A stretch of DNA of 62,064 bases from Dethiobacter sp. (GTDB lineage: Bacteria; Bacillota; Dethiobacteria; Dethiobacterales; Dethiobacteraceae): contig JAGXTN010000006.1 in assembly GCA_018333455.1 (NCBI GenBank), positions 1 through 62,064 of the forward strand, written 5' to 3'. The position numbers and the translations under genes are program-made. Positions 17,126 to 62,064 of this stretch are shown here, in pieces (within the stretch, counting starts at the first letter, position 1; every line of letters starts with the position of its first letter). The notes below the pieces were generated by a model. That model saw only the letters and a program-made list of their open reading frames with translations, did not search any database and had not been told where the DNA came from.

Positions 17126-17150
17126 TTATTTTAAGGGGTGAATTGTGCAG

Positions 17151-18488
17151 ATGAGCTTTAAGACGTTTAAGGGAGGCGTTCATCCCGGCGACTTTAAAAG
17201 TGCGACCGAGAAGAAGCCTGTCGTTCCCGCCAAGCCCCCTGCGGTGGCTATTATCCCACTGTCACAGCATATCGGAGCGCCTTGTGAGCCGCTCGTCGCT
17301 GTGGGGGATGAAGTGAAGATGGGGCAAAAGGTTGGTGACAGCAAAGGTTTTGTTTCCGCCCCGGTTCATTCCAGTGTTTCCGGGAAAGTGATAAAGATTG
17401 AAGCGTGTAATTCGGCGTTGGGTCGGCCTGTGCAAGCAGTCTACATTGAAAATGATTTCCAGGATACTTGGCACGAAGATGTGCAGCCCAATCCCAACTG
17501 GCAGCAGTTGTCGACAGATGAGTTAAAAAAGTTGATTAGAGAAGGCGGCATTGTCGGTATGGGAGGAGCCACATTTCCTACCCATGTAAAAGTTTCGCCT
17601 CCACCGGGTCAAGTCATCGAATATGTGCTGGTTAACGCGGCCGAGTGCGAGCCTTACCTTACCGCCGATCATCGCGCGATGCTAGAGCGTCCGGAAGATA
17701 TTATCACCGGACTACAGATTGTTATGAAAGTTGTCAATGCGCCCAAAGGGATGATTGGCATTGAGGATAATAAGCCGGATGCGGTGGAAATTCTCAAAAA
17801 AGCAGCCGCCAACTTTCCCGATATTGAAGTTCATGCCCTTCATACCAAGTACCCGCAGGGCGCGGAAAAACAGTTGATTAAAGTGTTTACCAATCGCGAA
17901 GTGCCTTCCGGCGGCTTGCCCTCCATGGTAGGGTGTGTGGTGCAAAACCCCGGCACGTGCATTGCCATCGCTGATATGGTGCGTTTCGGCAAGCCCTTGA
18001 TTGAGCGCAACGTCACAATTACCGGCTCAGGAATTATGGAGCCAAAAAATATGCTGGTGAGAGTAGGCACGCCTTTAGAAGAAGTGATTGAGCAATGCGG
18101 CGGCTTCAAGTCTAATATCCGCAAAATGGTTCTTGGCGGTCCGATGATGGGTTTCTCGCAACCGGGGCCGGAAAACCAGCCTGTCACTAAAGGAACATCC
18201 GGTATTCTTTGCCTTACCGAGCAGGACGTGCAGATTTATGATATCCGCCAGTGTATTAAGTGCGCCAAATGTGTAGATGTCTGCCCGGTTAGCATTATGC
18301 CTCTTTTTATCGGCTCATCTGTCGAGCAGGGCATGTACGACAAAGCGGAAGCATATAACGCTATGGACTGCATTGAATGTGGTTGCTGCACATATATCTG
18401 CCCTTCCAAGCGTCCGCTGGTGCAGTGGATTCGGATGTCCAAGGGGGATATTGCGGCCAGACGTGCTGCCGCCGCAGCGAAAAAGTAA
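17151..18488 (+). CDS. rnfC: Rnf complex subunit RnfC (NADH-binding, 2x[4Fe-4S])
   Basis: Peripheral NAD(H)-binding subunit of the ferredoxin:NAD+ oxidoreductase. N-terminal Rnf-N/sandwich hybrid region (GGVHPG), NADH/FMN-binding segment GMGGATFPTHVK, a SLBB-like region, and two [4Fe-4S] motifs CIKCAKCVDVCP and CIECGCCTYICP near the C-terminus. 445 residues, the short clostridial form without the long repeats of gammaproteobacteria. Start ATG 17151, 10 nt after AAGGGGTG; GTG 17145 is an alternative. First gene of rnfCDGEAB. Confidence 0.96.
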   Translation: MSFKTFKGGVHPGDFKSATEKKPVVPAKPPAVAIIPLSQHIGAPCEPLVAVGDEVKMGQKVGDSKGFVSAPVHSSVSGKVIKIEACNSALGRPVQAVYIENDFQDTWHEDVQPNPNWQQLSTDELKKLIREGGIVGMGGATFPTHVKVSPPPGQVIEYVLVNAAECEPYLTADHRAMLERPEDIITGLQIVMKVVNAPKGMIGIEDNKPDAVEILKKAAANFPDIEVHALHTKYPQGAEKQLIKVFTNREVPSGGLPSMVGCVVQNPGTCIAIADMVRFGKPLIERNVTITGSGIMEPKNMLVRVGTPLEEVIEQCGGFKSNIRKMVLGGPMMGFSQPGPENQPVTKGTSGILCLTEQDVQIYDIRQCIKCAKCVDVCPVSIMPLFIGSSVEQGMYDKAEAYNAMDCIECGCCTYICPSKRPLVQWIRMSKGDIAARRAAAAAKK

Positions 18489-18515
18489 GCGCAAAGGTAA
18501 AGGAGGGATAACCGG

Positions 18516-19442
18516 ATGGATAGAAAATTAGTCGTTTCTTCATCGCCGCACTTAAAGACGACGGAATCGGTTCGAAGTGTGATGATTGACGTGCTTGTGG
18601 CCTTATTTCCCGCCGCTTTGGCCGGCGTAATCTTCTTTGGCGCGCCAGCGCTCATAACCATGGTGCTAACTACAATTTCCGCCATGGTCACGGAAGCAAT
18701 AATTTTGCGTCAGAAAAATATTTTTGGCGACGGCAGTGCGGCTGTGGCAGGATTACTGCTCGCCATGGTTCTGCCCCCCGCCGTGCCCTGGTGGCTCGCC
18801 GTTATCGGCGGTATTACCGCCATAGCCATCGGCAAACAGGTTTTTGGCGGGATTGGCAACAACATTTTTAACCCGGCTCTGGTGGCTCGTGCCATTCTTA
18901 TGGCATCCTGGGCGAGCCACATGACTACTTGGGTTCGCCCTGTTGACTTGGCCACAGCCGCTACGCCGCTGGCATTAGGTCAGAAAGCCTTTAGTTTTAT
19001 TAATTTATTTGTGGGCGCCGTTCCCGGCAGTATTGGTGAAACCAGCACATTTGCCTTGATTCTGGGGGCTGGCTGGCTATTCTATAAAGGCCATATTACT
19101 TGGCGGATTCCCGGTGGTTTTATCGGTACTGTTTTTGTGATGGGCTTTTTATTTGGCGGTTACGGCGGTGTGTTGCCCATGATTTCAGCCGGCCTTTTCC
19201 ATGTATTGGCCGGCGGCGTAATGCTGGGCGCGCTTTTTATGGCTACCGATATGGTGACTTCGCCGGTGACTGCCAAGGGGCAGTTGATTTTTGGGATTGG
19301 CTGCGGCATGCTGACGATGCTGATTCGCCTCTTCGGCGCGTTCCCTGAAGGCGTCATGTTCGCCATCCTGATGATGAACGCCCTGACGCCGTTAATTGAT
19401 AATAAGACCTTGCCCAGGAAATACGGGGAGGTGGCGAAATAA
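18516..19442 (+). CDS. rnfD: Rnf complex subunit RnfD (membrane flavoprotein)
   Basis: Polytopic membrane subunit related to NqrB that carries covalent FMN and takes part in ion translocation. About eight or nine hydrophobic segments. A candidate flavinylation site is DLATAAT at residues 144-150, fitting the D-x-x-(S/T)-x-A-T pattern used by ApbE, with Thr150 as likely acceptor. The stop overlaps the ATG of rnfG (TAATG). An apbE gene lies 12 kb downstream. Confidence 0.95.
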   Translation: MDRKLVVSSSPHLKTTESVRSVMIDVLVALFPAALAGVIFFGAPALITMVLTTISAMVTEAIILRQKNIFGDGSAAVAGLLLAMVLPPAVPWWLAVIGGITAIAIGKQVFGGIGNNIFNPALVARAILMASWASHMTTWVRPVDLATAATPLALGQKAFSFINLFVGAVPGSIGETSTFALILGAGWLFYKGHITWRIPGGFIGTVFVMGFLFGGYGGVLPMISAGLFHVLAGGVMLGALFMATDMVTSPVTAKGQLIFGIGCGMLTMLIRLFGAFPEGVMFAILMMNALTPLIDNKTLPRKYGEVAK

Positions 19443-20263
19443 TGAAAGAAATGATGCGCACAGGGATAATTTTGATGCTTATCTGCGCGGTTGCAGCCGC
19501 AGCCTTGGCTTACACCAACCAAGTGACATCCGCGATCATTGCAACGCGCCTTCATCAGGAGAAAGTGGCACAACTGGCGGAATTGTTCCCTACGCTGACC
19601 AACTTTGAGGAAAGAACGGTGGACGGCCGCAGCGCTACAGTCGCCTTTGATGCGGAGAATAAGTTTGTGGGCGTGTTGGCCGAAGGGCAGACTGAGGGTT
19701 ATGGCGGCCCTATTAGTTTCAACCTGGGGATTAATGCGGCCGGGGAAATTGTCGGTTTGACGGTGGTGGCTCAGACGGAAACGCCGGGCTTGGGCGACAT
19801 AATCAAAGAAACGTGGTTTACCGAACAGTTTCTCGGCAAAAAAAGCGGCGACGCCTTCACCGTGGATGCCGTCTCCGGCGCGACAGTTTCCGTCCGAGCC
19901 ATGGAGCGCGGGGTAGAGAAAGAGTATAACGAAATCTGGCGCCGCTTCAGCGATGGAGGTGCAGCCGGTGCCGAGGGCACCAGCGCTCCGGCTTTTAGCC
20001 TGGAAGGCGTGACAGACGGCACTTATGCCGGCACAGCCCCTGGTTTTATAGGAGATATTACCCTGGAAGTGACTGTCGCCGGCGGCAAAATCACAGCCAT
20101 TAATGTCACAGAGCAACAGGAAACAGCCGACCGCTGGGCAGACGCCCAAAAGGTGATCGAGGAAATAATCGCCAAGCAGACAGTACAAGTCGATACGGTT
20201 TCAGGGGCAACAGTATCTAGCGACGCCATTATCAAGGCCGTGCAAAACGCACTGGCACAATAG
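19442..20263 (+). CDS. rnfG: Rnf complex subunit RnfG with two FMN-binding domains
   Basis: Membrane-anchored extracytoplasmic flavin subunit. One N-terminal membrane helix (about residues 7-25), a normal RnfG/NqrC FMN-binding domain with flavinylation motif DAVSGAT (Thr148), then, after a Gly/Ala-rich linker near residue 173-184, a second FMN-binding-like domain starting DGTYAGTAPGF and ending with DTVSGAT (Thr257). At 273 residues it is about 70-80 longer than single-domain RnfG proteins. The second domain looks like the free-standing type found in extracytoplasmic flavin-transfer proteins. The extra domain is read from sequence; that it carries FMN is inference. Confidence 0.93.
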   Translation: MKEMMRTGIILMLICAVAAAALAYTNQVTSAIIATRLHQEKVAQLAELFPTLTNFEERTVDGRSATVAFDAENKFVGVLAEGQTEGYGGPISFNLGINAAGEIVGLTVVAQTETPGLGDIIKETWFTEQFLGKKSGDAFTVDAVSGATVSVRAMERGVEKEYNEIWRRFSDGGAAGAEGTSAPAFSLEGVTDGTYAGTAPGFIGDITLEVTVAGGKITAINVTEQQETADRWADAQKVIEEIIAKQTVQVDTVSGATVSSDAIIKAVQNALAQ

Positions 20264-20280
20264 GCGGGAGGTGTGAAACG

Positions 20281-20880
20281 ATGAGTGTGATGAGTGAATT
20301 CTCAAAAGGGATTGTTAAAGAAAATGCCATCTTCCGCTTGGTGCTTGGTATGTGCCCCGCACTGGCTGTTACAACCAAGGCTGAGTTTGGCCTTGGGATG
20401 GGTCTTGCTACCACAGCAGTGCTTGTTGGCTCCAACGTGGTGATTTCCCTAATGCGCAGTATTATTCCGGCAAAAGTCCGGATCCCTGCCTTCGTCATTG
20501 TTATTGCCACGTTTGTGACGATGGTCGATATGCTCTTAAATGCCTATCTGCCTGTACTTCATGGACAACTGGGTATTTTTGTGCCACTGATTGTGGTAAA
20601 TTGTATTATCCTGGGGCGAGCCGAAGCATTTGCTTCCAAGGCTCCCGTTATCCACTCGCTGGCTGATGGTATCGGTATCGGTTTAGGATTTACGCTTTCC
20701 CTGGTGTTACTGGGTTCCGTGCGCGAGTTGCTGGGTGCCGGTACCATTTTTAACGTCAATCTGCTGGGAGCCGCCTATGAGCCGTTTAAGGTTTTTGGCT
20801 CCCCGCCGGGCGCTTTCCTGGCGCTTGGCTTGTTGTTGGCGCTGGTGAATATGCTCTCCAAGAAATACAAACTGGAGTAA
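20281..20880 (+). CDS. rnfE: Rnf complex subunit RnfE
   Basis: Integral membrane subunit, homologous to NqrD and to RnfA. About six membrane helices; the conserved paired-Cys features of this family are visible as GMCPAL near the start and VVNCIILGRAEAFA in the middle, where RnfA/RnfE Cys bind the intramembrane [2Fe-2S] cluster. 199 residues, normal. 17 bp after rnfG, with GGGAGGTG upstream. Confidence 0.95.
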   Translation: MSVMSEFSKGIVKENAIFRLVLGMCPALAVTTKAEFGLGMGLATTAVLVGSNVVISLMRSIIPAKVRIPAFVIVIATFVTMVDMLLNAYLPVLHGQLGIFVPLIVVNCIILGRAEAFASKAPVIHSLADGIGIGLGFTLSLVLLGSVRELLGAGTIFNVNLLGAAYEPFKVFGSPPGAFLALGLLLALVNMLSKKYKLE

Positions 20881-20893
20881 AGGAGGCTAGACT

Positions 20894-21469
20894 GTGGGCG
20901 AGATCTTTGCAATTATTTTTGGTGCGATTTTCATTAATAATTTTGTGTTGTCCCGCTTTTTAGGTATTTGCCCGTTCATGGGCGTTTCTAAAAAAGTGGA
21001 AACTTCATTGGGCATGGGGATGGCCGTTACTTTTGTGATGGGCTTGGCTTCGTTTGTAACCTGGCTGCTCGAGTATTATGTGCTGGTACCAAATCAACTG
21101 GAATATCTGCGTACCATCGTGTTTATCTTGGTTATCGCCTCGCTAGTCCAGTTTGTGGAACTGGTGATCCGCAAAGCCAGCCCCACCCTTTACCAGTCGC
21201 TCGGTATTTTTTTGCCGCTGATTACAACCAACTGTGCTGTGCTGGGCGTGGCGATTTTGAATATTCAGCTAGAGTACAATCTGTTTGAGGCCGTCGTCTT
21301 TGGCGTAGCTGCTGCCGTAGGTTTCACCTTGGCCTTGGTAATTATGGCGGGAATCCGCGAGCGGCTGGAATTGGTGTTTATTCCGAAACATTTTCAGGGT
21401 GTATCTATCGCCATGATTATTGCCGGAATCCTGTCCCTAGCTTTCGGGGGATTCAAGGGCATGATGTAG
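20894..21469 (+). CDS. rnfA: Rnf complex subunit RnfA
   Basis: Integral membrane subunit, NqrE homologue, six predicted helices in inverted topology to RnfE. It carries the family Cys in FLGICPFMG and [10 protein letters not shown], ligands of the intramembrane iron-sulfur cluster with RnfE. Starts with GTG after AAAGGAGG; 191 residues. Confidence 0.95.
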
Positions 21470-21475
21470 GGGGAA

Positions 21476-22270
21476 ATGACAATGAGTATAATTATACCGG
21501 CAATTCTTAGCCTAGGTGGGCTAGGGTTGTTATTTGGCGGCGTATTGGCCTTTGCCGCGCAAAAGTTCGCCGTTGAAGTCGATCCCAAGGTGGAAATGGT
21601 TCAGGAAGCACTTTTGGGTGCCAACTGCGGCGCTTGCGGCTATGCCGGCTGTGCCCAGTTTGCAGAAGAAGTAGTAGCAGGAAAAGCGCCGGTTAGCGGC
21701 TGTACGCCCGGTGGCGCTAAGACGGCAAGTAGAATCGCCGAAATTCTCGGGGCGGAAGCCCCGTCAGCAGAAGCACGCCTTGTGGCGCAAATTGTTTGCC
21801 TAGGCGACGGGGTTACCGCCAAAACTAAGCATATTTATGACGGTGCGCCTGATTGTAAAGCGGCGCTGATGTTTGGCGGCGGACCACTGGCTTGTAGCTT
21901 TGGCTGCGTAGGTCTTGGCAACTGTGTCCGCGCTTGCCCTGTTCATGCCATAGTCATGGGAGATAACGGCCTGCCCGTTATTGATACGGTTCTCTGTATC
22001 AGCTGCGGCAAATGCAAAAACATCTGCCCGCGACAGGTGATTGAAATGGTGAACGCTAATGGTCTGCACCACGTGCGCTGTAAGTCTCGTGACAAAGGCA
22101 AGCTTGTTCGGACAGTGTGCGAACGTGGATGTATCGCCTGTAATCTTTGTGTGAAAGCTTGCCCCGTGGAAGCCATTCGCATGGAAAACAACTTAGCTAT
22201 CATTGACAGTTATATCTGTACGAACTGCGGCGAATGTGTCGAGGCTTGTCCGCGTACTACCATTGTTTAG
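21476..22270 (+). CDS. rnfB: Rnf complex subunit RnfB (polyferredoxin)
   Basis: Ferredoxin-accepting subunit. N-terminal membrane helix, a [4Fe-4S] domain with Cys51, Cys54, Cys59 and Cys76 (NCGACGYAGC, then SGC), and four ferredoxin-like motifs (CVGLGNCVRACP, CISCGKCKNICP, CERGCIACNLCVKACP, CTNCGECVEACP) for further clusters. 264 residues, one ferredoxin module more than the shortest RnfB forms. Last gene of rnfCDGEAB, followed by a strong terminator. Confidence 0.96.
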   Translation: MTMSIIIPAILSLGGLGLLFGGVLAFAAQKFAVEVDPKVEMVQEALLGANCGACGYAGCAQFAEEVVAGKAPVSGCTPGGAKTASRIAEILGAEAPSAEARLVAQIVCLGDGVTAKTKHIYDGAPDCKAALMFGGGPLACSFGCVGLGNCVRACPVHAIVMGDNGLPVIDTVLCISCGKCKNICPRQVIEMVNANGLHHVRCKSRDKGKLVRTVCERGCIACNLCVKACPVEAIRMENNLAIIDSYICTNCGECVEACPRTTIV

Positions 22271-22311
22271 GCTGCGGCGCGGAAGACTTCTCTTCCGCGC
22301 CAGCTTTTTTC
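22271..22311 (+). terminator. rho-independent terminator after the rnf operon
   Basis: 11-bp stem GGCGCGGAAGA / TCTTCCGCGCC with a CTTC loop, then AGC and six T. Confidence 0.9.
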
Positions 22312-22312
22312 G

Positions 22313-22341
22313 TTGACATTCCCGGGTTACGGGAGTAAACT
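22313..22341 (+). promoter_or_regulatory. Probable promoter of moaC and the antiporter operon
   Basis: TTGACA (22313-22318), 17-nt spacer, TAAACT (22336-22341). A TATAAT at 22352-22357 has no good -35 partner. It begins right at the end of the rnf terminator. Confidence 0.5.
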
Positions 22342-22366
22342 TAGTTTGTCGTATAATGACTTTATT

Positions 22367-22410
22367 GTGAGTCGGTTATTTCGCCGATGTTAACAAGTCG
22401 GACATCTGAC
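22367..22410 (+). repeat. 44-bp repeat, copy 2 (upstream of moaC)
   Basis: GTGAGTCGGT to ACATCTGAC, the second copy of the element at 12821-12864. It lies between the probable promoter and the moaC ribosome binding site, so in this copy it would be transcribed. Confidence 0.8.
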
Positions 22411-22430
22411 CCCTAATAATGGAGGAATTT

Positions 22431-22931
22431 ATGGATAAGCTGACACACATAAATGAACAGGGACGCGCTAAAATGGTGGATGTTTCCGCAAAAGACGATA
22501 CCCGCCGGCTGGCGGTGGCGCAAGCCTCTGTGCGGATGAAGTCGGCAACGCTGGAGTTAATCGCTGCCGGCGGCATCGCCAAGGGAGACGTGCTGGCCGT
22601 TGCTCAGGTGGCCGGCGTGCTGGCGGCAAAAGAGACGTCACGCTTGATCCCCATGTGTCACCCGCTGTTTATTACGGCGGTTGATATTTGCTTTACGCTT
22701 GATAATGTGAGACAGCTTGTGAAAATAAAAGCTACGGTTGGTACTACCGGCAAAACAGGCGTGGAAATGGAAGCGCTTACCGCCGTTTCAGTGGCTGCGC
22801 TGACAATTTATGATATGTGTAAGGCCATTGATAAGGAGATGGAAATCGGCGATGTCTGTTTGCTGGAAAAGCAGGGCGGCAAATCGGGTGATTATCGTCG
22901 TATTGAAGGCGGGGAGGAGGGTAGGCAGTGA
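22431..22931 (+). CDS. moaC: Cyclic pyranopterin monophosphate synthase MoaC
   Basis: Second step of molybdenum cofactor synthesis: converts the MoaA product to cyclic pyranopterin monophosphate. The family motifs [23 protein letters not shown] and [10 protein letters not shown] are present; 166 residues. Start ATG 22431 after GGAGG; an upstream in-frame ATG at 22419 would overlap that site. No other moa gene is in the window. Its stop overlaps the GTG of mrpE, so it is the first gene of the antiporter operon, an odd pairing. Confidence 0.95.
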
Positions 22932-23440
22932 AAAAAATCGAGAAAGACACCACTTTTTGGGCGACGGCAGGCGTATTGTTTCTCTTTTGGATTTTGATCA
23001 CCTGGCGTCTGCACTGGCAGCACTTGCTGGTGGGTGCGATCTGCTCTTACGGAATCGCCGCTTTTAACCATGATTTATTGCTGAAGCCGGTAGAGCGTCC
23101 GCTGTATCATAAAAAAACGCTTTGGAAGTGGGTCGTCTACTTCTATATTCTGGTGGTTGCCATTTTTAAGTCCAACTGGGATGTGGCAAAGATTGTCTTG
23201 AAGCCCAAAATGGACATTTCTCCGGGATTTATTAAATATCGGGCAAGACTGAAAAAACCGCTAAATAGAGTAATTCTCGCCAACTCCATCACTTTAACCC
23301 CCGGAACTTTAACGGTGGAAATGGAAGGCGATATCTATGTGGTTCATGCCATTACCCGAGGCAATGCTGAGGATGTGGCTGAATGGGATATGATCGACAG
23401 GCTGGTTGAAATCGAGGAGGCAGAACAAAATGGGGCTTGA
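22928..23440 (+). CDS. mrpE: Mrp/Mnh antiporter subunit E
   Basis: Small membrane subunit of multisubunit Na+/H+ antiporters (MbhA equivalent of archaeal membrane hydrogenases). Two N-terminal hydrophobic segments followed by a soluble domain containing [16 protein letters not shown], the family hallmark. 170 residues; GTG start overlapping moaC by 4 bp, with GGGAGGAGGG upstream. Confidence 0.92.
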
Positions 23441-23714
23441 GTTTACCTTTCTTGAGAACATTTTTATCGGTGTGAGCGTAATCCTGATTATTGCCACCTT
23501 TTTTTGCCTTTATCGTGCTGTGGTAGGCCCAAGCGAGGCTGACCGAGTGGTGGCCATTAACATTATCGGCACTAAAACTGTAGTAATTATTTCGCTGATC
23601 GCCTTTGTACTGAAACAGGAATTTTTCTTGGATGTGGCCTTGGTTTATGCTCTGATTAGCTTTGTGGCCACCATCGGGATTGCAAAATATATGGAAAAAG
23701 GTGCCTTGGAGTAG
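23430..23714 (+). CDS. mrpF: Mrp/Mnh antiporter subunit F
   Basis: Three-helix membrane protein of the MrpF/MbhB family; the conserved GPSEADRVVAIN motif is clear. Start ATG 23430 preceded by GGAGG (23416-23420) and overlapping the end of mrpE by 11 bp. 94 residues. Confidence 0.92.
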   Translation: MGLEFTFLENIFIGVSVILIIATFFCLYRAVVGPSEADRVVAINIIGTKTVVIISLIAFVLKQEFFLDVALVYALISFVATIGIAKYMEKGALE

Positions 23715-23726
23715 GGGAGGATTACG

Positions 23727-24071
23727 ATGACTGTCGTAACTAACACGCTTATTATTATTACTCTTGCCGCCGGCCTGTTTTTCTTTCTTGTTGGGGTGGT
23801 GGGCCTGATCAGATTGCCTGACGTTTATTCCCGTATGCATGCCACAACAAAATGTGACACGTTGGGCGCGGGCTTGATTCTGTTTGCGCTCGTCTTGTAC
23901 GCCGGTTTTTCCAATGCCAGCGTAAAGCTCTTATTTATGATTCTCTTTCTTTGGATTACTAACCCAACTGCTGCCCATGTAATTGCCCGTGCCTCCTATC
24001 GAAATAAAGTCCGCTTTTGCGAAGGCACATACGAACTCGATAAAACCGGGGAGGCGCAGTGCAATGATTGA
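23727..24071 (+). CDS. mrpG: Mrp/Mnh antiporter subunit G
   Basis: MrpG/MbhC family: three helices with the signature GLIRLPDVYSRMHATTKCDTLG (read here as GLIRLPDVY and HATTKCDTLG) and NPTAAHVIARA. 114 residues; overlaps the next gene by 8 bp. Confidence 0.92.
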   Translation: MTVVTNTLIIITLAAGLFFFLVGVVGLIRLPDVYSRMHATTKCDTLGAGLILFALVLYAGFSNASVKLLFMILFLWITNPTAAHVIARASYRNKVRFCEGTYELDKTGEAQCND

Positions 24072-24303
24072 TGTTCTGAAATACCTGATTCTTTTTTTTC
24101 TGGTTTTTTGCGCCGTCTTTGTGGCAAGGACAAAGGATATGCTCTCGGCAGTGATTATTTTCGCTGCATACAGTCTAATGATGGCTATTCTCTGGTTGCT
24201 TTTAGCGGCGCCGGATATTGCCATAACGGAAGCGGCTATCGGTGCCGGCGTAACAACCTTGCTGCTCGTGGCAGCCATTAGTAAGACGAGGAGGGAAGAA
24301 TAG
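24064..24303 (+). CDS. MbhD-like subunit (DUF4040; equivalent to part of MrpA C-terminus)
   Basis: 79-residue protein of two or three helices with ARTKDMLSAVIIFAAYS and APDIAITEAAIGAG, the signatures of the MbhD/DUF4040 domain that in bacterial MrpA is fused behind the antiporter part. Here it is a separate gene, as in archaeal mbh operons. Start ATG 24064 inside the end of mrpG. Confidence 0.85.
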   Translation: MIDVLKYLILFFLVFCAVFVARTKDMLSAVIIFAAYSLMMAILWLLLAAPDIAITEAAIGAGVTTLLLVAAISKTRREE

Positions 24304-24573
24304 GTGAGAAAACTGCTGGTGCTTTTTTTTCTTGCGGTGATCATGGTGGTGCTGGTGGCAACTGTGATTGAAATGCCTACAATCGGCGACCCTGCCAATG
24401 TGACCAACAACGAAGTTCCACGCCGCTATGTGGAAGCTAGCCTGGAGGAAACGGGAGCGCTAAATGTGATCGCTAGTATCATTACAGACTACCGTGCCTT
24501 TGACACACTAGGTGAGGCCACTGTGCTTTTTGTGGCAATTGCCGCAGTATTATCCAATTTGAAAGCGCACTGA
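24304..24573 (+). CDS. MbhE-like subunit (equivalent to the extreme C-terminus of MrpA)
   Basis: 89 residues with ETGALNVIASIITDYRAFDT and LGEATVLFVAIAAV, the hallmark of the MbhE/MrpA C-terminal domain. GTG start directly after the stop of the previous gene. With the preceding gene it supplies what is normally one long MrpA tail. Confidence 0.85.
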   Translation: MRKLLVLFFLAVIMVVLVATVIEMPTIGDPANVTNNEVPRRYVEASLEETGALNVIASIITDYRAFDTLGEATVLFVAIAAVLSNLKAH

Positions 24574-24595
24574 TGTCGCATGCGAGGTGAATGAC

Positions 24596-25039
24596 TTGGA
24601 AGATGTTATTGTCCGTTATGTCAGCCGTTTTATCCTGCCTTTTGTTCAGCTTTACGGGCTGTATGTCGTGCTGCACGGCCACCTTTCCCCCGGCGGCGGA
24701 TTTTCCGGTGGTGCCGTTATCGGTGCGAGCATGATTTTATACGCGCTGTCTTTTAACTTGGCGGCAGGGTCAAAGAAATTATCACACGATGTTTCTTCCA
24801 TCCTGGAAAGTAGCGGTGCGCTGATTTTTGCCGGGATGGGACTTCTCTCAATTTTGCTGGGAGGAAACTTTCTTGCCAACAGAGCTGCCGGCATTCCTTT
24901 AGGCACGCCGGGAAATCTTTTTAGCAGCGGCTCCATTGCGATCATTACTTTTGGCGTGGGAATCAAAGTGGCCAGCACCATGATTACGCTGTTTTACAGC
25001 CTGATTGAGGAGGAGGGACATAGTCATGACCATCACTGA
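24596..25039 (+). CDS. mrpB: Mrp/Mnh antiporter subunit B
   Basis: MrpB/MbhF family membrane protein; the signature HGHLSPGGGFSGGAVIGA is present, with four hydrophobic segments. Start TTG 24596 (5 nt after GAGGTGA) is preferred; GTG 24587 is an alternative inside that site. 148 residues; overlaps mrpC. Confidence 0.92.
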   Translation: MEDVIVRYVSRFILPFVQLYGLYVVLHGHLSPGGGFSGGAVIGASMILYALSFNLAAGSKKLSHDVSSILESSGALIFAGMGLLSILLGGNFLANRAAGIPLGTPGNLFSSGSIAIITFGVGIKVASTMITLFYSLIEEEGHSHDHH

Positions 25040-25409
25040 AATTGTGCTGCGTTTGCATGCCAACAGTTATTATTTCTTTGCCATAATCCTCTTTATTATC
25101 GGCTTTCATACTATGTTGACTCATAATAATTTAATCAAAAAGGTGATCGGCATGAATATTATGGATATGGCCATCTTCTTGTTTTTTGTGGCCATCGGCT
25201 ATGTCCGCGGCGGCCGTTCGCCGATTCTTGAACCGGGTGTTAACCACACTTTTATTAACCCGCTCCCTTCTGCCCTAATTCTGACCGGAATCGTTGTAGC
25301 CGTCAGCGTTACGGCGTACGCTCTGAGTCTGATTATCAAACTGTACAAGCACTATGGAACTATTGACGCGGAGGAAATTATGCGTATACGGGGAGGCGGC
25401 TCCCTGTGA
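25026..25409 (+). CDS. mrpC: Mrp/Mnh antiporter subunit C (NuoK-like)
   Basis: Three-helix NuoK-like subunit: IIGFHTMLTHNNLIKKVIGM, then NHTFINPLPSALILTGIVV match MrpC/MbhG. Start ATG 25026 after GGAGGAGG inside the end of mrpB; stop overlaps the GTG of mrpD by 4 bp. 127 residues. Confidence 0.92.
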   Translation: MTITEIVLRLHANSYYFFAIILFIIGFHTMLTHNNLIKKVIGMNIMDMAIFLFFVAIGYVRGGRSPILEPGVNHTFINPLPSALILTGIVVAVSVTAYALSLIIKLYKHYGTIDAEEIMRIRGGGSL

Positions 25410-26893
25410 ATCTAAGTCAACACTTGCCTGCACTAATTGTGGTAGTGCCGCTTTTTTTTGCTTTTGTCATGCCTTTGCTGGCACGCTGGCGCAAACAGTG
25501 GTGTGTGCCGGTCACCTTGGGTGCAATTATTTTTTCTTTTGTTGCTGCGGTGAAGATGGCGTTTCAGGTGATGAACACCGGACCTTTCTCTTATTATATG
25601 GGAGACTGGCCGCCGCCTTGGGGGATTGAACTTGGCATTGATTATCTAGCAGCATTTGCCGCCCTGACAATTACCGGCGTAGGTTTGTTGATTATTTGGT
25701 ACGGCAGCAAGGATCTGCTTCATGAACTTAAAGCGGAAGTCATCGGCTGGTATTACACGCTCTACCTGCTGCTGATCGCCTCCATGGTAGGGATTGTGAT
25801 TACAAATGACATCTTTAATATGTTCGTCTTTCTTGAAATTTGTGCTATCGCCGCCTGTGGGATAATATCAATTAAAGAAAGCAGGGACTGCATAGAGGCA
25901 GCTTTTAAGTATTTGGTATTATCTGTATTGGGTTCCGGCGCTTTCCTGTTAGCCGTCGCCATGCTCTATATGGTAACAGGGCACTTAAACTTTACTTTTA
26001 TGGCAGAAGCTCTGCCGGAAGCGATGGCTCTCTATCCCAATAATTTACTGGTGGCATTGGCACTGTTAATTGTCGGGCTAGGAGTGAAAGCGGCGCTCTT
26101 CCCGTTGCACGTTTGGTTGCCAGATGCCCATTCCTCGGCGCCTTCTCCCTCTTCTGCTGTACTATCTGCTCTCGTGATTAAAGTTTATGCGGTGGCAATG
26201 ATTAGACTGCTTTACCTTGTTTTCCCGCGAGAACTGCTGGGGATGGCTCCCGTGATGGAGATAATCCTTTGGATGTCCTCCCTAGCCATTATTATCGGCT
26301 CAATGTTTGCCATTGTACAGGATGACATTAAAAAAATGCTCGCCTACTCTAGTATTGCCCAAATTGGTTACGTCTTTTTAGGTGTGGGTCTGATGAGCGA
26401 ATCTGCGCTGGTCGGCGGTATCTTGCATATTTTCAACCATGCTTTAATGAAATCCATGCTCTTCTTGGCCGCAGGCGCCTTTATTTATGGCACGGGAGTG
26501 CGGAAGCTTAGTGAGCTGAAAGGAATCGGACACACCATGCCAATCCCAGCCATTGCTTTCTGTATCGGTGCGTTTTCCATGGTGGGAATCCCGATTACCA
26601 GTGGGTTTATTTCTAAATGGTACTTGGCTTTAGGTTCTCTTGACGTCGGGCGTCCGTTTTTTATGGGAGTGATTCTCATCAGCAGTCTGTTAAACGGGTT
26701 CTATTATTTGCCGATTGTGGTTAATGCCTTTTTCGGCGAGCCGGAAAAGGCTGTGGCTAAGCCCAAGCCGTTGCCGAAACAGATGCTTGTGCCACTCACA
26801 ATTCTCAGTTTTGGCGTGATTTTCTTTGGCGTTTTTCCGTCGCTGATTTTAGGAATTGTTTACAGAGCGGCTCAGCTACTGCTGGGATTATAA
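25406..26893 (+). CDS. mrpD: MrpD-type antiporter subunit (copy 1)
   Basis: NuoM/NuoN/MrpD-like 14-helix ion-translocating subunit, 495 residues. The key residues of this superfamily are visible: the TM5 Glu in FVFLEICAIA, the TM7 Lys in GLGVKAALFPLHVWLPDAH, and the HALMKSMLFLAAGA segment. GTG start, overlapping mrpC. It is the MbhH equivalent; two more subunits of this superfamily follow. Confidence 0.93.
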   Translation: MNLSQHLPALIVVVPLFFAFVMPLLARWRKQWCVPVTLGAIIFSFVAAVKMAFQVMNTGPFSYYMGDWPPPWGIELGIDYLAAFAALTITGVGLLIIWYGSKDLLHELKAEVIGWYYTLYLLLIASMVGIVITNDIFNMFVFLEICAIAACGIISIKESRDCIEAAFKYLVLSVLGSGAFLLAVAMLYMVTGHLNFTFMAEALPEAMALYPNNLLVALALLIVGLGVKAALFPLHVWLPDAHSSAPSPSSAVLSALVIKVYAVAMIRLLYLVFPRELLGMAPVMEIILWMSSLAIIIGSMFAIVQDDIKKMLAYSSIAQIGYVFLGVGLMSESALVGGILHIFNHALMKSMLFLAAGAFIYGTGVRKLSELKGIGHTMPIPAIAFCIGAFSMVGIPITSGFISKWYLALGSLDVGRPFFMGVILISSLLNGFYYLPIVVNAFFGEPEKAVAKPKPLPKQMLVPLTILSFGVIFFGVFPSLILGIVYRAAQLLLGL

Positions 26894-26958
26894 TAAAGCT
26901 GGGATGTTAGTTTAAGCATTTTAGGGAGAGCTTTATTTAAAGAAGGGGAGATGAGGAA

Positions 26959-28452
26959 ATGCCGCAGTTAGATTCATTTCTGCCTGTTTGGATCGTGATG
27001 TTCCCAATGGTGATGACTGTAGTGATTTTTTATGTGGAACAACGATCAGAGAAGATGCGCAATGCGCTGGCCGTAGCCACCTCTGTCGTCACGTTTCTTT
27101 CTGTTCTGGCGCTGTATCCGGGAGTTATGGCCGGCAAGATTATTGAGTTTGAGCTGTTTCAGATATTGCCCAACTTGGCTATTTCTTTCAGGGTGGACAT
27201 CCTGAGCTTCTCTTTGGCGTTACTCTCATCATTTATCTGGATGTTGGTAGCGATTTACTCGATTGATTATATGTGTAAGGAGCATGGTTGCAATCGTTAT
27301 TATCCGGTGTTGATTATCACCCTTGCCAGTTGTATGGGAATTTTTATGGCAGGAGACCTGTTCACTCTTTTTGTGTTCTTTGAGTTGATGTCACTGATTT
27401 CATATGTATTAGTCGTCCACGAGGAAACGATTGAGGCGCTCCGCGCAGGGTATAAGTATCTGATTATGACCATCATTGGCGGACTTGCTCTCTTCTTTGG
27501 AATTATAATTACCTTTGAACTTGGCGGTTCAGTTTCGTTGAGCAATCCAGTGCCCCTAATCAGCGAACCGTCAAACCTGGCATTTTTCGCTTTTATATCT
27601 TTTCTAATTGGTTTTGGCATGAAAGCCGGGATGTTTCCGCTGCACGTCTGGTTGCCGGATGCCCATCCGGTTGCTCCGTCTCCCGCCAGTGCCCTGCTTT
27701 CAGGAATCATGTTAAAAACAGGCGCATACGGTTTACTGCGGGTTATCTTCCACGTCTACGGGATCGAATTCATGCAGGAAACGGGCTGGACGGTGATTCT
27801 TGCCGTGGTGGCCGTGATTACCATTCTGCTGGGTTCCGCGGTAGCAATTACCCAAGAGAATCTGAAGCGCCGTCTGGCATACTCTAGTGTTGGTCAGATG
27901 GGCTACATTCTGCTTGGGATCTCCATTCTTAACGAGCGCGCGCTGATGGGGAACATCTTTCATATTTTCAGCCACGCTTTTATGAAGAGCACCCTCTTTT
28001 TGGCGGCCGGCGCGATTATCCTCAAAACGGGCAAGAAAAATATTAAGGATTTAGGCGGTATTGGCCGCCAGATGCCGTTTACCATGTTTGCCTTTACGCT
28101 GGCAGCCTTATCGATGATTGGTATTCCGCCATTTAACGGTTTTTTAAGTAAGTGGACTCTATCGCTTGGGGCGATGGATGCCGGCGTTCCTTTCTACGTG
28201 TTGATTCTTTTGATTAGCAGTTTATTGAATGGGCTTTATTATCTGCCGATCATTATTTCCGCTTTTTTTGGTGAAGAGCACGGTGAAGGGCATCAGCATC
28301 AATCAATAAAAATCAACGAGGCTCCCTATAAAATGCTGATACCGATCGCTATCTTGGCGATTAGCTGCCTGCTTTTCGGGCTGCTCCCTTCCAACCTGCC
28401 CTTTGACTTATCCCGGGTGGCCGCAGAATATTTGCTTAGGGGAGGATTCTAG
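26959..28452 (+). CDS. MrpD-type antiporter subunit (copy 2)
   Basis: Second proton-conducting membrane subunit, 497 residues, with TM5 Glu in FVFFELMSLISYVLV, TM7 Lys in GFGMKAGMFPLHVWLPDAH and the HAFMKSTLFLAAGA segment. Clearly paralogous to the copy before it. There is a 65-bp gap from copy 1 and a GGGGAGATGAGG ribosome binding site. A His-rich loop (EEHGEGHQHQ) lies before the last helices. It may supply the antiporter part of MrpA, whose C-terminal parts are separate genes here. Confidence 0.9.
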   Translation: MPQLDSFLPVWIVMFPMVMTVVIFYVEQRSEKMRNALAVATSVVTFLSVLALYPGVMAGKIIEFELFQILPNLAISFRVDILSFSLALLSSFIWMLVAIYSIDYMCKEHGCNRYYPVLIITLASCMGIFMAGDLFTLFVFFELMSLISYVLVVHEETIEALRAGYKYLIMTIIGGLALFFGIIITFELGGSVSLSNPVPLISEPSNLAFFAFISFLIGFGMKAGMFPLHVWLPDAHPVAPSPASALLSGIMLKTGAYGLLRVIFHVYGIEFMQETGWTVILAVVAVITILLGSAVAITQENLKRRLAYSSVGQMGYILLGISILNERALMGNIFHIFSHAFMKSTLFLAAGAIILKTGKKNIKDLGGIGRQMPFTMFAFTLAALSMIGIPPFNGFLSKWTLSLGAMDAGVPFYVLILLISSLLNGLYYLPIIISAFFGEEHGEGHQHQSIKINEAPYKMLIPIAILAISCLLFGLLPSNLPFDLSRVAAEYLLRGGF

Positions 28453-28457
28453 TCAAC

Positions 28458-30842
28458 ATGATCTTCACATCCTTTTTGCCGGTGCTGGCCATCTTAGTCC
28501 CCTGGCTTGGTGCGCTGGTGGTCTTTCTGGCAGGCTATCTCTCGGAGAAATTACGCAATCTGCTGGCGGTGCTGGTAGCTTTGGCTACATGCGGCATTGT
28601 CCTCTCGCTCTATCCCTATGTGCAGACAGGCACAGTCGTCTATCGCTTTGCCGATCTGATGAGCTTTGGGCTTTATTTTCGTGTTGATTTTCTCAGCTTT
28701 GTTTTCGCGGCGCTTTTCTCGCTAAGTTGGCTTTTTGCGACGATCTATGCTACCGTCTACATGAAGAAGGAGCACGCACAGAACCGCTTCTATCTCTTTC
28801 TCCTGTTAACTTTTGCGCATTGTCTGGGCGTCGTTCTGGCCGGTGATTTGTTTAGTCTTTTCTTATTTTTTGAGCTGATGACTTTCTCTTCCTACGTGCT
28901 CGTTATTCATCGGCAAACACCGGGGGCGATCAGAGCCGGTAATATCACAATATATATGGGTGTCGCCGGAGGGTTGGCGCTGCTGATGGGTATTTTTATC
29001 CTCTTTGCAGGGGTAGGTACGTTGGATCTTGTGCCTATGCTGGAAAGAATCCTGGCGGCCGGGATTAACCCGCTGCTTGTAATCCCCCTGTTTATGGTCG
29101 GCTTTGGCATCAAAATGGGGATGGCACCGCTGCATATTTGGATGCCCAGAGCCTATGAAGAAGGTCCCTCGCCGATAAACGCCATCTCATCGGCGGCCAT
29201 GCTGAAAGCCGGTGCCTACGGGATGATTCGGATCATCGGCATGGTTTTCACTCCGGCAAATCCGGCAGTAGTGCCGGCTGGGGCGGAAGTGATTAAATAT
29301 ATTGGACTAGCCGTCATTTGGCTGGGGATTCTCACGATGGTCATGGGTGCTGCCTTGGCAATTTTGCAACATAACGCCAAGCGAATCCTGGCCTATAGCA
29401 GTGTCAGCCAGATGGGCTATATTCTGATGTGCATCGGCGTGGCCGCTTTTCTCGGCTTCGAAAAAGGAGCGGTGGGCTTTTCCGGTGCGATGTATCATAT
29501 TATTAATCATTCCGTCTTTAAGGCGGCACTCTTTATGGTGGTGGGAGCAGTTTACCTGATTACCTTGGATGTGGATCTTAGCCGTGTGCGGGGAATGATG
29601 AAAAAGGTTCCTTTTCTGGCGTTCGTTTTTTTGATTTCCTATGTCGCCATTGCCGGTGTACCTGGTGGGAGCGGCTATGCTTCCAAGGCTATCATGCACA
29701 GAGCCATTGTTTACGCCTATAAATACGGCGGAGAGTTCACCAGTCTGTGGGTGGCAGAGAAGTTTTATGTTCTAGCCAGCGCGATGACTGTAGTTTATTT
29801 TGCTAAGTTGTTTATCGGGCTTTTTTTGGGTAATATGCGGAAGGAGCACTTGCATCTAAATTTTCAGGTATCACCGCTGATTAAGGGCGTTTTGTTACTT
29901 TACTCAGCAGCGATTTTGGCTGTGGGCTTCTTCCCGAACTTTGTCTTAAACCGTATCGTCATTCCAGCCGGAGCCGGCTTCTCCTTTGACGCGTATGGCT
30001 TCAAGGCCTTAAAGGAAATCAACTTTTTCCTTTGGTATGATTTGCAGGAACCGCTGTTGGTCTTTGCCTTGGCTGCGCTGATGTATCTGGTCTTAGACCA
30101 TAAGCGAATTTTCGATTGGAAAGCACCGGAGTGGCTTAGTGTGGAGCATAGTTTTTTTCTGCCGCTGTCCCGCTTTTTCTTTAAAACTTGTTGTAATTTC
30201 GGCACAGCTTTCGACTCTGCTATCAATCGGACATATTTGCAGTCCGGAAAAATAGCTTCGGAGATGTGCAAATATATCACTGTTTTTGATTCTTCTGTCA
30301 ATAAAGTCTATGAAAGCAGCGGAGGGGCTGCGCGCCGTCTTGCGGAACAGGCCGAAAAGTTTGACGGCGTGATAAATGACGCTTATGAAAAATCGGGTGG
30401 CGTGGCTCGGATGATCGCTGATGGAGCAGAGCAATTTGACGGCGTGATAAATGACGCTTATGAAAAATCGGGCGGCGTGGCTCGGATGATCGCCGATGGA
30501 GCGGAGCAATTTGACGGCGTGATCAATGACGCTTATGAAAAATCGGGCGGCGTGGCGCGCAAGATTGCGGACGGAGCAGAACAATTAGACGGCGTGATCA
30601 ATGACACCTATGAAAAATCCGGGCAGATGGCGCGGCAGTTGGCAGACAAGACGGCGGAGCTTGATAGTTCACTGGACGAGGCATATGAGCAATCAGGCGA
30701 ACATTCCCGCAGTCTGTGGGAGCGGATGCGGGGTAGTCAGTCAGACTGGAATATTAAAAACCTTAACTTCGATTCGCTCCTGATCGCTTTGACTCTAGGT
30801 CTCTTCCTCTTTTTGCTGTTTTACTATACCCGCTTTAACTGA
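28458..30842 (+). CDS. MrpD/NuoL-type antiporter subunit with long repeat-bearing C-terminal arm (copy 3)
   Basis: 794 residues. The first 500 or so form the antiporter-type core with TM5 Glu in LFFELMTFSSYVLV and TM7 Lys in GFGIKMGMAPLHIWMP. An additional helix near 540-560 is followed by seven contiguous 25-residue repeats (residues 585-759) and one last hydrophobic helix (about 772-790). In NuoL-type proteins the region before the last helix is the lateral helix that lies along neighbouring subunits; the repeats sit in the same place. That they are a structural arm clamping the three antiporter subunits is inference. 5 bp after copy 2; last gene of the operon. Confidence 0.9.
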   Translation: MIFTSFLPVLAILVPWLGALVVFLAGYLSEKLRNLLAVLVALATCGIVLSLYPYVQTGTVVYRFADLMSFGLYFRVDFLSFVFAALFSLSWLFATIYATVYMKKEHAQNRFYLFLLLTFAHCLGVVLAGDLFSLFLFFELMTFSSYVLVIHRQTPGAIRAGNITIYMGVAGGLALLMGIFILFAGVGTLDLVPMLERILAAGINPLLVIPLFMVGFGIKMGMAPLHIWMPRAYEEGPSPINAISSAAMLKAGAYGMIRIIGMVFTPANPAVVPAGAEVIKYIGLAVIWLGILTMVMGAALAILQHNAKRILAYSSVSQMGYILMCIGVAAFLGFEKGAVGFSGAMYHIINHSVFKAALFMVVGAVYLITLDVDLSRVRGMMKKVPFLAFVFLISYVAIAGVPGGSGYASKAIMHRAIVYAYKYGGEFTSLWVAEKFYVLASAMTVVYFAKLFIGLFLGNMRKEHLHLNFQVSPLIKGVLLLYSAAILAVGFFPNFVLNRIVIPAGAGFSFDAYGFKALKEINFFLWYDLQEPLLVFALAALMYLVLDHKRIFDWKAPEWLSVEHSFFLPLSRFFFKTCCNFGTAFDSAINRTYLQSGKIASEMCKYITVFDSSVNKVYESSGGAARRLAEQAEKFDGVINDAYEKSGGVARMIADGAEQFDGVINDAYEKSGGVARMIADGAEQFDGVINDAYEKSGGVARKIADGAEQLDGVINDTYEKSGQMARQLADKTAELDSSLDEAYEQSGEHSRSLWERMRGSQSDWNIKNLNFDSLLIALTLGLFLFLLFYYTRFN
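30210..30734 (+). repeat. Seven tandem 75-bp (25-codon) repeats inside the third antiporter gene
   Basis: Units begin F/L-D and follow the pattern (F/L)D-x-x-(I/V/L)-(N/D)-x-x-Y-x-x-SG then an Ala/Arg-rich half. Units 3, 4 and 5 are nearly identical in DNA, units 1, 2, 6 and 7 more diverged, indicating recent expansion in the middle of an older array. Length is exactly 7 x 75 bp, so the frame is kept. Confidence 0.95.
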
Positions 30843-30876
30843 CAAACAGTTTTAATTGACATAAATTGATACAGAG

Positions 30877-30914
30877 GTTAAGCAAATGGCGCCTGTAGGC
30901 GTCATTTGCTTAAC
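30877..30914 (+). terminator. Long hairpin after the antiporter operon
   Basis: GTTAAGCAAATG pairs perfectly with CATTTGCTTAAC, extended inward by a G-T and CGCC/GGCG (17 pairs, loop TGTA). Only a short TTGTAG follows, so it may be an inefficient terminator or a processing/stability hairpin. Confidence 0.6.
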
Positions 30915-31047
30915 TTGTAGCATAGGAAATTATATCGTTCAGGGAAGCTACGATCCTATGCGTTGGGGTTTGTAAGGGGCGTACCCCTTACTCTTGCGGG
31001 GTGCTCAGGGTCCACAGACCCGCCGAAGTGGCGGCAGCCCCTAGCGG
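30915..31047 (+). ncRNA. Candidate structured RNA upstream of apbE
   Basis: About 130 nt without a credible gene but dense in complementary pairs. GCATAGGA (30920-30927) pairs with TCCTATGC (30954-30961), enclosing ATCGT/ACGAT. GTAAGGGG/CCCCTTAC (30972-30991) has a CGTA loop. A three-way junction is closed by GGGGTGC (30998-31004) with GCAgCCCC (31034-31041), holding GGGTC-cAcA-GACCC and CGCC-gaagt-GGCG. It is followed by a terminator at 31048-31097. It could be a small RNA or a leader controlling apbE; it matches no riboswitch class I can recognise. Confidence 0.5.
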
Positions 31048-31097
31048 AATAAAAAAGACGCGTCAGTTGATAGAAAACGCGAAGGGTCTTTTTTATT
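31048..31097 (+). terminator. Terminator / attenuator upstream of apbE
   Basis: AATAAAAAAGAC (31048-31059) pairs perfectly with GTCTTTTTTATT (31086-31097), with inner GCGT/ACGC. The A-tract and T-tract would make it work on both strands. It lies between the candidate structured RNA and apbE. Confidence 0.7.
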
Positions 31098-31155
31098 GCG
31101 CACCGTCTTCTTCCGTGATAAACTGAAACAGACAAATACATTGGAGCGATGCAGG

Positions 31156-32199
31156 GTGAAACTACCACACTGGCCCCGCCGGCTGATTATTGCGATTGTC
31201 GTCTCACAGGTTCTGCTTGTTTTGTTTATAATCAGCATGGTCAGATCCGGCGGGCTGCTTGGCGGCCCTAAAAGGCTGGTACGTACAGAGTTTCTCATGA
31301 ACACTGTGGTCGAAACGATAATCTATACGGCAAATACCAAAGCGGGAGAACAGGCTTTGTCGGCTGCTTCGGAGGCGACAGCCAGGCTGGCTGCCATCCT
31401 TGACAGGCACCGCGCAGGTTCTGAGGTGGCGATGATCAATGCGCAGGCCGGCAAAGGGCCGGTAAGCGTCTCTGCCGACACGTTCACAAATATTAGCTTG
31501 GCGCTGGAAGTAGGCAGTCTAACAAGCGGCGCCTTTGATATAACTGTGGCCCCCTTGCTCGAGCTATGGGGCTTTGGCACCGGAAATGCAGTCGTTCCCT
31601 CGGAGCAGCAATTGGCGAAAGTGTTGCCGCTGGTTGATTATCAGAGGGTGCGCTTGGTTGAGGAAGGGATGCAGGTCTTTCTGGAAGCTGAAGGGATGCG
31701 GCTGGACCTGGGCGGCATTGCCAAGGGCTATATCGTCGATCAGGCAGTGGAAGTGCTGCGGGCAGCGGGAGTTAGTTCCGGGACTGTGGACGCCGGTGGC
31801 GATATCCGTGCCATAGGCTCAAAGCCCGACGGTTCGCCTTGGCGAATTGGCATCCGCCATCCCCGTGAGCGGCGGGAACTAGTGGCAATAGTGGAGCTCC
31901 GGGACAAGGCGATTGTAACTTCCGGTGATTACGAGCGTTTTTTTACCGTTAGCGAGCAGCGTTATCACCATCTCCTTGACCCGCAGACAGGGATGCCTGC
32001 CCGGGGTGTGACTAGCGTAACGGTTGTGGCGCCTGATGCTTTTACAGCCGATGCTTATTCGACCGCCGTCTTTGTTATGGGACGAGAACGGGGGATGGCT
32101 TTGGTAGAGTCGCTGCCGGAGGTGGAAGCGATTATTATTACAGAAGATGGGCAAATTCATCTTTCCTCCGGACTGGAAGGGCAGGTTGAAATTCTGTAG
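31156..32199 (+). CDS. apbE: FAD:protein FMN transferase (ApbE)
   Basis: Extracytoplasmic Mg-dependent enzyme that attaches FMN by phosphoester to Thr in RnfG, RnfD and related proteins. N-terminal membrane anchor (LIIAIVVSQVLLVLFIISMV), then the ApbE fold with SGAFDITVAPLLELWGFG, RLDLGGIAKGYIVDQA, and VDAGGDIRAIG, and the C-terminal HHLLDPQTGMPARG and DAFTADAYSTAVFVMG. 347 residues from GTG 31156. Given the Rnf operon 9 kb upstream, with three candidate flavinylation sites, Rnf is the obvious substrate. Confidence 0.94.
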   Translation: MKLPHWPRRLIIAIVVSQVLLVLFIISMVRSGGLLGGPKRLVRTEFLMNTVVETIIYTANTKAGEQALSAASEATARLAAILDRHRAGSEVAMINAQAGKGPVSVSADTFTNISLALEVGSLTSGAFDITVAPLLELWGFGTGNAVVPSEQQLAKVLPLVDYQRVRLVEEGMQVFLEAEGMRLDLGGIAKGYIVDQAVEVLRAAGVSSGTVDAGGDIRAIGSKPDGSPWRIGIRHPRERRELVAIVELRDKAIVTSGDYERFFTVSEQRYHHLLDPQTGMPARGVTSVTVVAPDAFTADAYSTAVFVMGRERGMALVESLPEVEAIIITEDGQIHLSSGLEGQVEIL

Positions 32200-39148: not shown

Positions 39149-39272
39149 GGGCAGACCTGCGTGTCTGTCCAAACAGCAGACCTGCGTGTCTGTCCAAACA
39201 GCAGACCTGCGTGTCTGTCCAAACAGCAGACCTGCGTGTCAAATAGGTAGGGGCAGACCTATGTGTCTGCCC
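39145..39272 (+). repeat. Tandem array of the GTAGGGGC repeat (AGAC-stem type) between minC and minD
   Basis: Starts with GTAGGGGC, then a 25-bp unit (GCAGACCTGCGTGTC, TGTCC, AAACA) repeated from 39151, 39176, 39201 and 39226 (last partial), then a full element GTAGGGGCAGACC...GTCTGCCC at 39247-39272. The array adds about 140 bp between two co-transcribed genes. Confidence 0.9.
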
Positions 39273-41609: not shown

Positions 41610-42095
41610 GGGCAAACACGTAGGGGCGAACCTGCGTGTTCGCCCGGATTTGGGCAGACACACAGGTCTGCCCCTACATATTCGCCCGGTTTGTCACGTC
41701 AACCATTTGGACAAACACGTAGGGGCGAACCTGCGTGTTCGCCCGGTTTGTCACGTCAACCATTTGGACAAACACGTAGGGGCGAACCTGCGTGTTCGCC
41801 CGGTTTGTCACGTTGACCATTTGGACAAACACGTAGGGGCGAACCTGCGTGTTCGCCCGGATTTGGGCAGACACATAGGTCTGCCCCTACATATTCGCCC
41901 GGATTTGGGCAGACACATAGGTCTGCCCCTGCATATTCGCCCGGATTTGGGCAGACACATAGGTCTGCCCCTACATATTCGCCCGGATTTGGGCAGACAC
42001 ATAGGTCTGCCCCTACATATTCGCCCGGATTTGGGCAGACACACAGGTCTGCCCCTACATATTTGGGCATACACGTCGACCATTTGGGCCTTGCG
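41610..42095. repeat. Mixed tandem array of palindromic repeats between rodA and spoIVFA
   Basis: About 490 bp made of two hairpin units. Four units have stems GGGCGAAC/GTTCGCCC (loop CTGCGT), three of them separated by identical 30-bp linkers; period 57 bp. Six units in the opposite orientation have stems GGGCAGAC/GTCTGCCC, five in a row with a 42-bp period. The first two form an inverted doublet with GTAGGGGC at one end and GCCCCTAC at the other. No gene lies in 41586-42165; an open frame through it is an artefact of 42- and 57-bp periods. Confidence 0.93.
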
Positions 42096-61956: not shown

Positions 61957-62064
61957 TGGGCAGACACACAGGTCTGCCCCTACACCGGGCAGACACACAG
62001 GTCTGCCCCTACACCGGGCAGACACACAGGTCTGCCCCTACACCGGGCAGACACACAGGTCTGC
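61957..62064. repeat. Tandem array of 29-bp palindromic units at the window edge
   Basis: Units beginning GGGCAGAC at 61958, 61987, 62016 and 62045, exact 29-bp period, each with stem GGGCAGAC/GTCTGCCC and loop ACACAG, separated by CCTACACC. On the minus strand they read GTAGGGGCAGACC, the same element as at 39.1 kb. The array runs off the window end, upstream of mvaB. Confidence 0.93.

Follow-up and report, generated by a model that had tools for sequence, protein, structure and literature searches.

The window, the whole 62,064-nucleotide stretch of Dethiobacter sp. DNA analyzed here, carries at 19442-32199 a set of Mrp genes embedded between rnfG-E-A-B-moaC and apbE. The genes given below all lie on the + strand. 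The set comprises in order MrpE (22928..23440, PF01899), MrpF (23406..23714, PF04066), MrpG (23727..24071, PF03334), an MbhD-like gene (23983..24303, PF13244, whose start may lie downstream) and an MbhE-like gene (24304..24573, PF20501), each of them a C-terminal part of MrpA present as its own gene, then MrpB (24587..25039, PF04039), MrpC (25005..25409, PF00420), two MrpD-type subunits, D1 (25406..26893, PF00361 with E=2.6e-63) and D2 (26959..28452), and, as the last gene and third antiporter-type subunit of the operon, ANT3 (28458..30842, 794 aa), which D2 adjoins. Upstream lie RnfG-RnfE-RnfA-RnfB (19442..22270; PF04205, PF02508 twice and Fe-S domains), with rnfC and rnfD presumed, by size and location, to occupy 17145-19442, and an ApbE flavin transferase (31096..32199, PF02424 with E=7.8e-94) follows directly 3' of ANT3. 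The gene content is Mrp-type, with MrpB, C, D, E, F and G found together by Pfam in a conserved gene order, and no hydrogenase genes were found in the ANT3 operon. The order rnfB-Mrp-apbE recurs in most genomes of the class that were examined and in other families of the phylum, which suggests that Rnf and the Mrp antiporter act on one common ion gradient. The window's genome also has a second cluster with several antiporter-type subunits (G000:C17:216-9006; L024-L030 and L046), in which the C-terminal arm is long and non-repetitive.

ANT3 combines a NuoL/MrpA-N-like core (PF00361, E=7.8e-50) with a repeat arm. The core has 14 helices in residues 1-505 (28458..29972), as delimited by AlphaFold and homologue comparison, and across 25 homologues E139, K219 and K410 are invariant and K250 is kept in at least 90%; we assign these to the proton path as the charged Glu of TM5 and Lys of TM7, TM8 and TM12. 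Next come the predicted TM15 (residues 526-548, 30033..30101, an AlphaFold block with pLDDT 77-93), which anchors the arm in front, and a lead-in at the WLSVE motif (30141..30209) where the predicted helix 562-632 starts. Behind the arm, the second anchor is the TM16 predicted by AlphaFold (residues 771-793, 30768..30836). The top structural match of the ANT3 model in Foldseek is MrpA (7qru_A, E=3.6e-24), and the layout of core, TM15 and TM16 agrees with that of MrpA (7qru_A, 6z16_A) and NuoL; the best sequence match in the PDB is MbhH. With a Proton_antipo_M domain in a 14-helix core and the conserved charged residues, ANT3 is of the NuoL/MrpA-N type. It carries no fused C-terminal MbhD/MbhE-like domain, as the protein stops after TM16, and its TIGR00940 score of 212 is below the cut-off of 920. 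Since MbhD and MbhE are separate genes, we classify it as MrpA-N/NuoL-like and not as a full MrpA.

The first-pass annotation had described an array of 25-residue units, exactly seven of them, lying between the two final membrane helices, in the place of the lateral helix of NuoL and MrpA, with units 3-5 almost identical in DNA, and each of these points proved correct. The array spans residues 585-759 (30210-30734); its units, of consensus [FL]D..[LI][ND]..Y[E][KQ][ST]G..[A]R.[LI][A]...., start at residues 585, 610, 635, 660, 685, 710 and 735. Unit 1 (30210..30284, FDSAINRTYLQSGKIASEMCKYITV) is specialized as the first and has Cys at position 20; it is followed by unit 2 (30285..30359, FDSSVNKVYESSGGAARRLAEQAEK), unit 3 (30360..30434, FDGVINDAYEKSGGVARMIADGAEQ) and its near-copy unit 4 (30435..30509, likewise FDGVINDAYEKSGGVARMIADGAEQ), unit 5 (30510..30584, FDGVINDAYEKSGGVARKIADGAEQ), unit 6 (30585..30659, LDGVINDTYEKSGQMARQLADKTAE) and the specialized last unit 7 (30660..30734, LDSSLDEAYEQSGEHSRSLWERMRG). 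Lag-25 identity within the array is 0.62, against a highest value at any lag of 0.19 in 2000 shuffles, and TRF reports a 75-bp array at 30360-30624 with 3.5 copies and 91% matches. Units 3 and 4 are identical at 72/75 bases, which looks like a recent duplication, and unit 5 matches either of them at 66/75. In two other members of the window's genus (G001 and G003) the operon is the same and the array has six units, and this duplication would account for the additional unit of the window. As the window is a draft assembly, the copy number of this or any other single draft is provisional, all the more so because the contig of one related genome breaks inside its own array. The locus records of G001 and G003 are named Clostridium and Dethiobacter and belong to CROMO MAGs, where we take CROMO to stand for the Coast Range Ophiolite.

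The window holds repeats of other kinds as well. An imperfect palindrome, GGGCAGACACNNAGGTCTGCCC, is present 11 times against 0 expected, with clustered copies at 39149-39272, 41652-42063 and 61958-62064 that are tandemly arrayed over short stretches in units of 25, 42, 57 and 29 bp; an extended form has 17 exact copies in the genome. A 42-bp tandem repeat with 2.6 copies and 83% matches (TRF) lies at 57416-57524.

To describe the unit we cut 190 units from 33 proteins, mostly 4-8 from each and 4750 positions in all, the fit being poor for some terminal units and for the first three units of L036. Position 9 is Tyr in 181/190 units, position 2 is Asp in 179/190 and position 13 is Gly in 161/190. 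Cys occupies position 20 in 30/33 first units and in 0/157 later ones, and the middle units are closer to each other than to the first or last. In the window, the position-20 cysteine of unit 1 is Cys604 (30267-30269). A period of 25/7 = 3.571 residues, the seventh harmonic of the unit, accounts for 55% of the variance in conservation and for 50% of the variance in hydrophobicity (permutation p=1e-4 and 6.5e-4, respectively), and prolines fill only 14/4750 positions. Because conservation and hydrophobicity both peak at this period, the unit probably corresponds to seven turns of alpha-helix with a single conserved face. This face comprises F/L1, D2, L5, N/D6, Y9, G13, A16, L19 and A20; it is hydrophobic at positions 1, 5, 8 and 19 and small or polar at 2, 6, 9, 13, 16 and 20, and mean hydrophobicity is low (-0.20, with a per-unit moment of 0.40). 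With seven turns to the unit, one more unit would leave the face in register.

We predicted full-length structures as single chains with AlphaFold for the window protein and for a five-unit relative (L031) that has many in-register relatives. Both models have a good core and an arm with pLDDT of 35-60. In the window model the confidence of helix 562-632 falls at about 605-610 and pLDDT then drops below 50; the helix breaks of the arm, of very low confidence, disagree between the two models. Contacts of the arm are not visible, and we discarded both arm predictions as meaningless. Of the extended helical arm that had been proposed from the window, the helical character is thus upheld by the periodicity and the straight, complex-spanning shape is not, the model falling below pLDDT 50. 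Searches with the arm gave zero matches at curated cut-off in Pfam and NCBIfam and no convincing match in the PDB, the only nominal one being a coiled-coil protein (E=6e-4). Built as a single helix, the arm would measure from ~200 Å (134 residues) to ~310 Å (209 residues) and would exceed the known lateral helix, about 110 Å long, even with four units. The arm is therefore not simply a longer straight lateral helix.

The array is not peculiar to the window's genome. A profile built from the arm and the last helix matches 65/98 genomes in the class and 28/399 genomes sampled from the phylum; the former fall in 32/49 genera, and the latter lie mostly outside the class and have drifted units. Within the class the pitch is strictly 25 residues, mostly in 4-8 copies. 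Among close relatives whose operons are identical, unit number is 4, 5, 6 or 7, in agreement with the earlier suggestion that the arm changes length by repeat number. The distance from the WLSxE motif to the TM16 motif is accordingly 134, 159, 184 or 208-209 residues in the window's family, in steps of 25, and 168 or 193 in a second family. One orthologue, in MAG GPS1B09 (L003:180-2031), is broken: it loses the frame after residue 124 and a second time close to the array's end, and residues ~384-500 are missing, which reflects either decay or an assembly error. In G023 the armed gene is apparently not the last of its cluster. Two genomes, G005 (L157:3-2159 with L159) and G012 (L158:9227-11608), have a second armed antiporter among unrelated genes, away from the Mrp and Rnf genes. 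The contigs of the G005 copy end inside the repeat array, and a seemingly free-standing 121-residue arm gene in this genome was dismissed as an artefact, the arm gene and the matching core both lying at contig ends.

The arm goes together with D2. Taking about 62% identity or more as a close D2 orthologue, we found both in 58 of the 98 class genomes, the arm only in 7, D2 only in 0 and neither in 33, counts that are non-independent as they come from one class. One of the arm-only genomes (G015) does have a D2, which has diverged, and the others seem to be fragmentary. In four genomes (G009, G010, G011 and G017) D1 and the small Mrp genes are gone from the locus, and D2 and 6-7 units are kept. 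In the sister genomes G008 and G013, the sole antiporter-family match is an ANT3 core beside rnfB that stops shortly after TM15 and has no arm; the tree (100% support) makes this loss one event. Outside the class, three genomes (L113, L114 and L134) have D1 and no D2 and are still armed, so the partner of the arm may be any adjacent D-type subunit. The arm is also found on a second core: in G006 and G007 a different antiporter core at the equivalent operon place carries the arm and last helix, which share 57-61% identity with those of the window, and genus g28 has both cores in one operon, ANT3 without units and the other core with four or five. Each cluster that we read has one antiporter with a clear array. 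A repeat-free homologue in an otherwise identical complex, named in the first-pass annotation as an outcome that would speak against its proposal, was not found in these clusters: repeat-free ANT3 cores have either lost all partners (G008 and G013) or stand beside a neighboring antiporter that is armed instead.

In Mrp complexes the lateral helix links TMH15 to TMH16 and braces MrpA with MrpD (PMC7419157), lying at the cytoplasmic surface (PMC9568556), and in complex I its role is described as purely structural (PMC9802314). As the array occupies the place of this helix and follows the partner, the best reading, which we hold to be somewhat probable, is that the arm is a modular, overgrown lateral-helix strap binding ANT3 to its D-type neighbor. 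The arm would then correspond to the MrpA and NuoL lateral helix, enlarged and built from repeats, held at its ends by TM15 and TM16 and presumably on the cytoplasmic side. Its conserved face would pack on another protein, for which the MrpD-type subunit next to ANT3 (D2 in the window) is the likeliest candidate, and so strap ANT3 to it. The first and last units would act as specialized ends and the middle units would be interchangeable, their number shifting through in-frame duplication and deletion of 75 bp. Several results sit uneasily with a strap. Arm pLDDT is 35-60 in both models and shows no contact with the partner, the length as one helix would exceed that of the known lateral helix, unit number is independent of subunit number, and the second armed copies of G005 and G012 lie away from Mrp genes; the joint loss in G008 and G013 is moreover a single event, and the genomes of one class are non-independent.

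The main rival, which we regard as possible if unlikely, is a coiled coil or hairpin in the cytoplasm, formed either between the arms of two protomers or by one arm folding back on itself; it would stabilize Mrp dimers, which are known (PMC9568556), instead of reaching along a single row of subunits. A pitch of 25 residues equals 7+7+11, close to that of a straight coiled coil, small residues (G13, A16, A20) are abundant on the conserved face, mean hydrophobicity is low, the arm is longer than the known lateral helix and its sole nominal PDB match is a coiled-coil protein, but neither structure appears in the models, whose breaks differ at low confidence. A bolder version, which we consider unlikely, is that the plain lateral helix has given way, in a large group of Bacillota, to a transferable 25-residue module. 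As a cytoplasmic coiled coil or hairpin instead of a helix along the row of subunits, this module would join protomers into dimers or larger arrays with a copy number freely tuned by slippage; if true, it would add an assembly element of a new kind to the complex I superfamily.

Docking of the antiporter onto Rnf by the arm, giving an Rnf-Mrp supercomplex, appears very improbable to us: most loci, outside the class too, do have the Mrp genes flanked by rnfB and apbE, but RnfB is present in 28 of the 33 class genomes with neither arm nor D2, G008 and G013 retain Rnf beside an armless core, and G015 has the arm and Mrp genes without an adjacent Rnf. Hardly more promising is a ruler, by which unit number would set the count of antiporter subunits held in a row. 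Arm length is quantized in whole units, and according to the passage of PMC6606698 that cites Chadwick 2018 a lengthened NuoL accompanies an extra NuoM in 2M complex I. Within one family, however, operons with D1, D2 and ANT3 have 4, 4, 5, 5, 6, 6, 6 or 7 units and those with D2 and ANT3 have 6, 7, 7 and 7. Because unit number is independent of antiporter gene content, we rejected lengthening of the 2M type, and the earlier proposal of a length tuned to tie three subunits together fails with it, operons with one partner (G009, G010, G011 and G017) having 6-7 units and those with two having 4-7. We give least credence to a linker that expands neutrally and binds no specific partner, which would suit the differing copy numbers of close relatives that share an operon but not the strict 25-residue pitch, the near-constant Y9 and D2 positions (181/190 and 179/190), the specialized first unit (Cys20 in 30/33 against 0/157), the presence of the arm on two cores or its tight co-occurrence with the D2 subunit.

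The strap reading bears on a dispute over whether the lateral helix is a strap or a coupling rod. The arm offers natural length variants in what would be exact seven-turn steps, transfer between two cores and one lineage (G008 and G013) in which partners and arm disappeared together, so a strap can be tested by whole units without rotating the helix. Among alkaliphilic and other anaerobes the array is also a widespread trait of Mrp complexes that has apparently gone undescribed. Our literature searches on Mrp and NuoL gave no description of a 25-residue array, in keeping with the original remark that no such case was known, and the passage found of the D. alkaliphilus genome paper lists mrp genes and does not mention the array (PMC5609068).

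Among known systems, MrpA of Anoxybacillus flavithermus and Bacillus pseudofirmus resembles ANT3 in its 14-helix core, TM15 and TM16, and in having an MrpD-type subunit as neighbor. MrpA differs in that MbhD/MbhE-like helices are fused after TM16, where the ANT3 operon has separate genes, and the arm of ANT3, which would likewise be a helix at the cytoplasmic face, is far longer than the lateral helix, which in these two MrpA proteins is, to our knowledge, non-repetitive. MBH, with its Mrp-like module, shares with the ANT3 operon the separate MbhD and MbhE in an Mrp-type set, but MbhH (510 aa) has no such arm. The transverse helix of NuoL/ND5, including the NuoL of 2M complex I, corresponds to the arm in position, in the bracing role proposed for the arm and in having changed length in evolution. 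NuoL is already known to be longer where a subunit is added; there, however, length tracks the extra subunit, whereas the arm of ANT3 varies by units independently of subunit number. In its build, as a putative long amphipathic helix with a repeated face and a quasi-regular pitch, the arm resembles apolipophorin-type and coiled-coil proteins.
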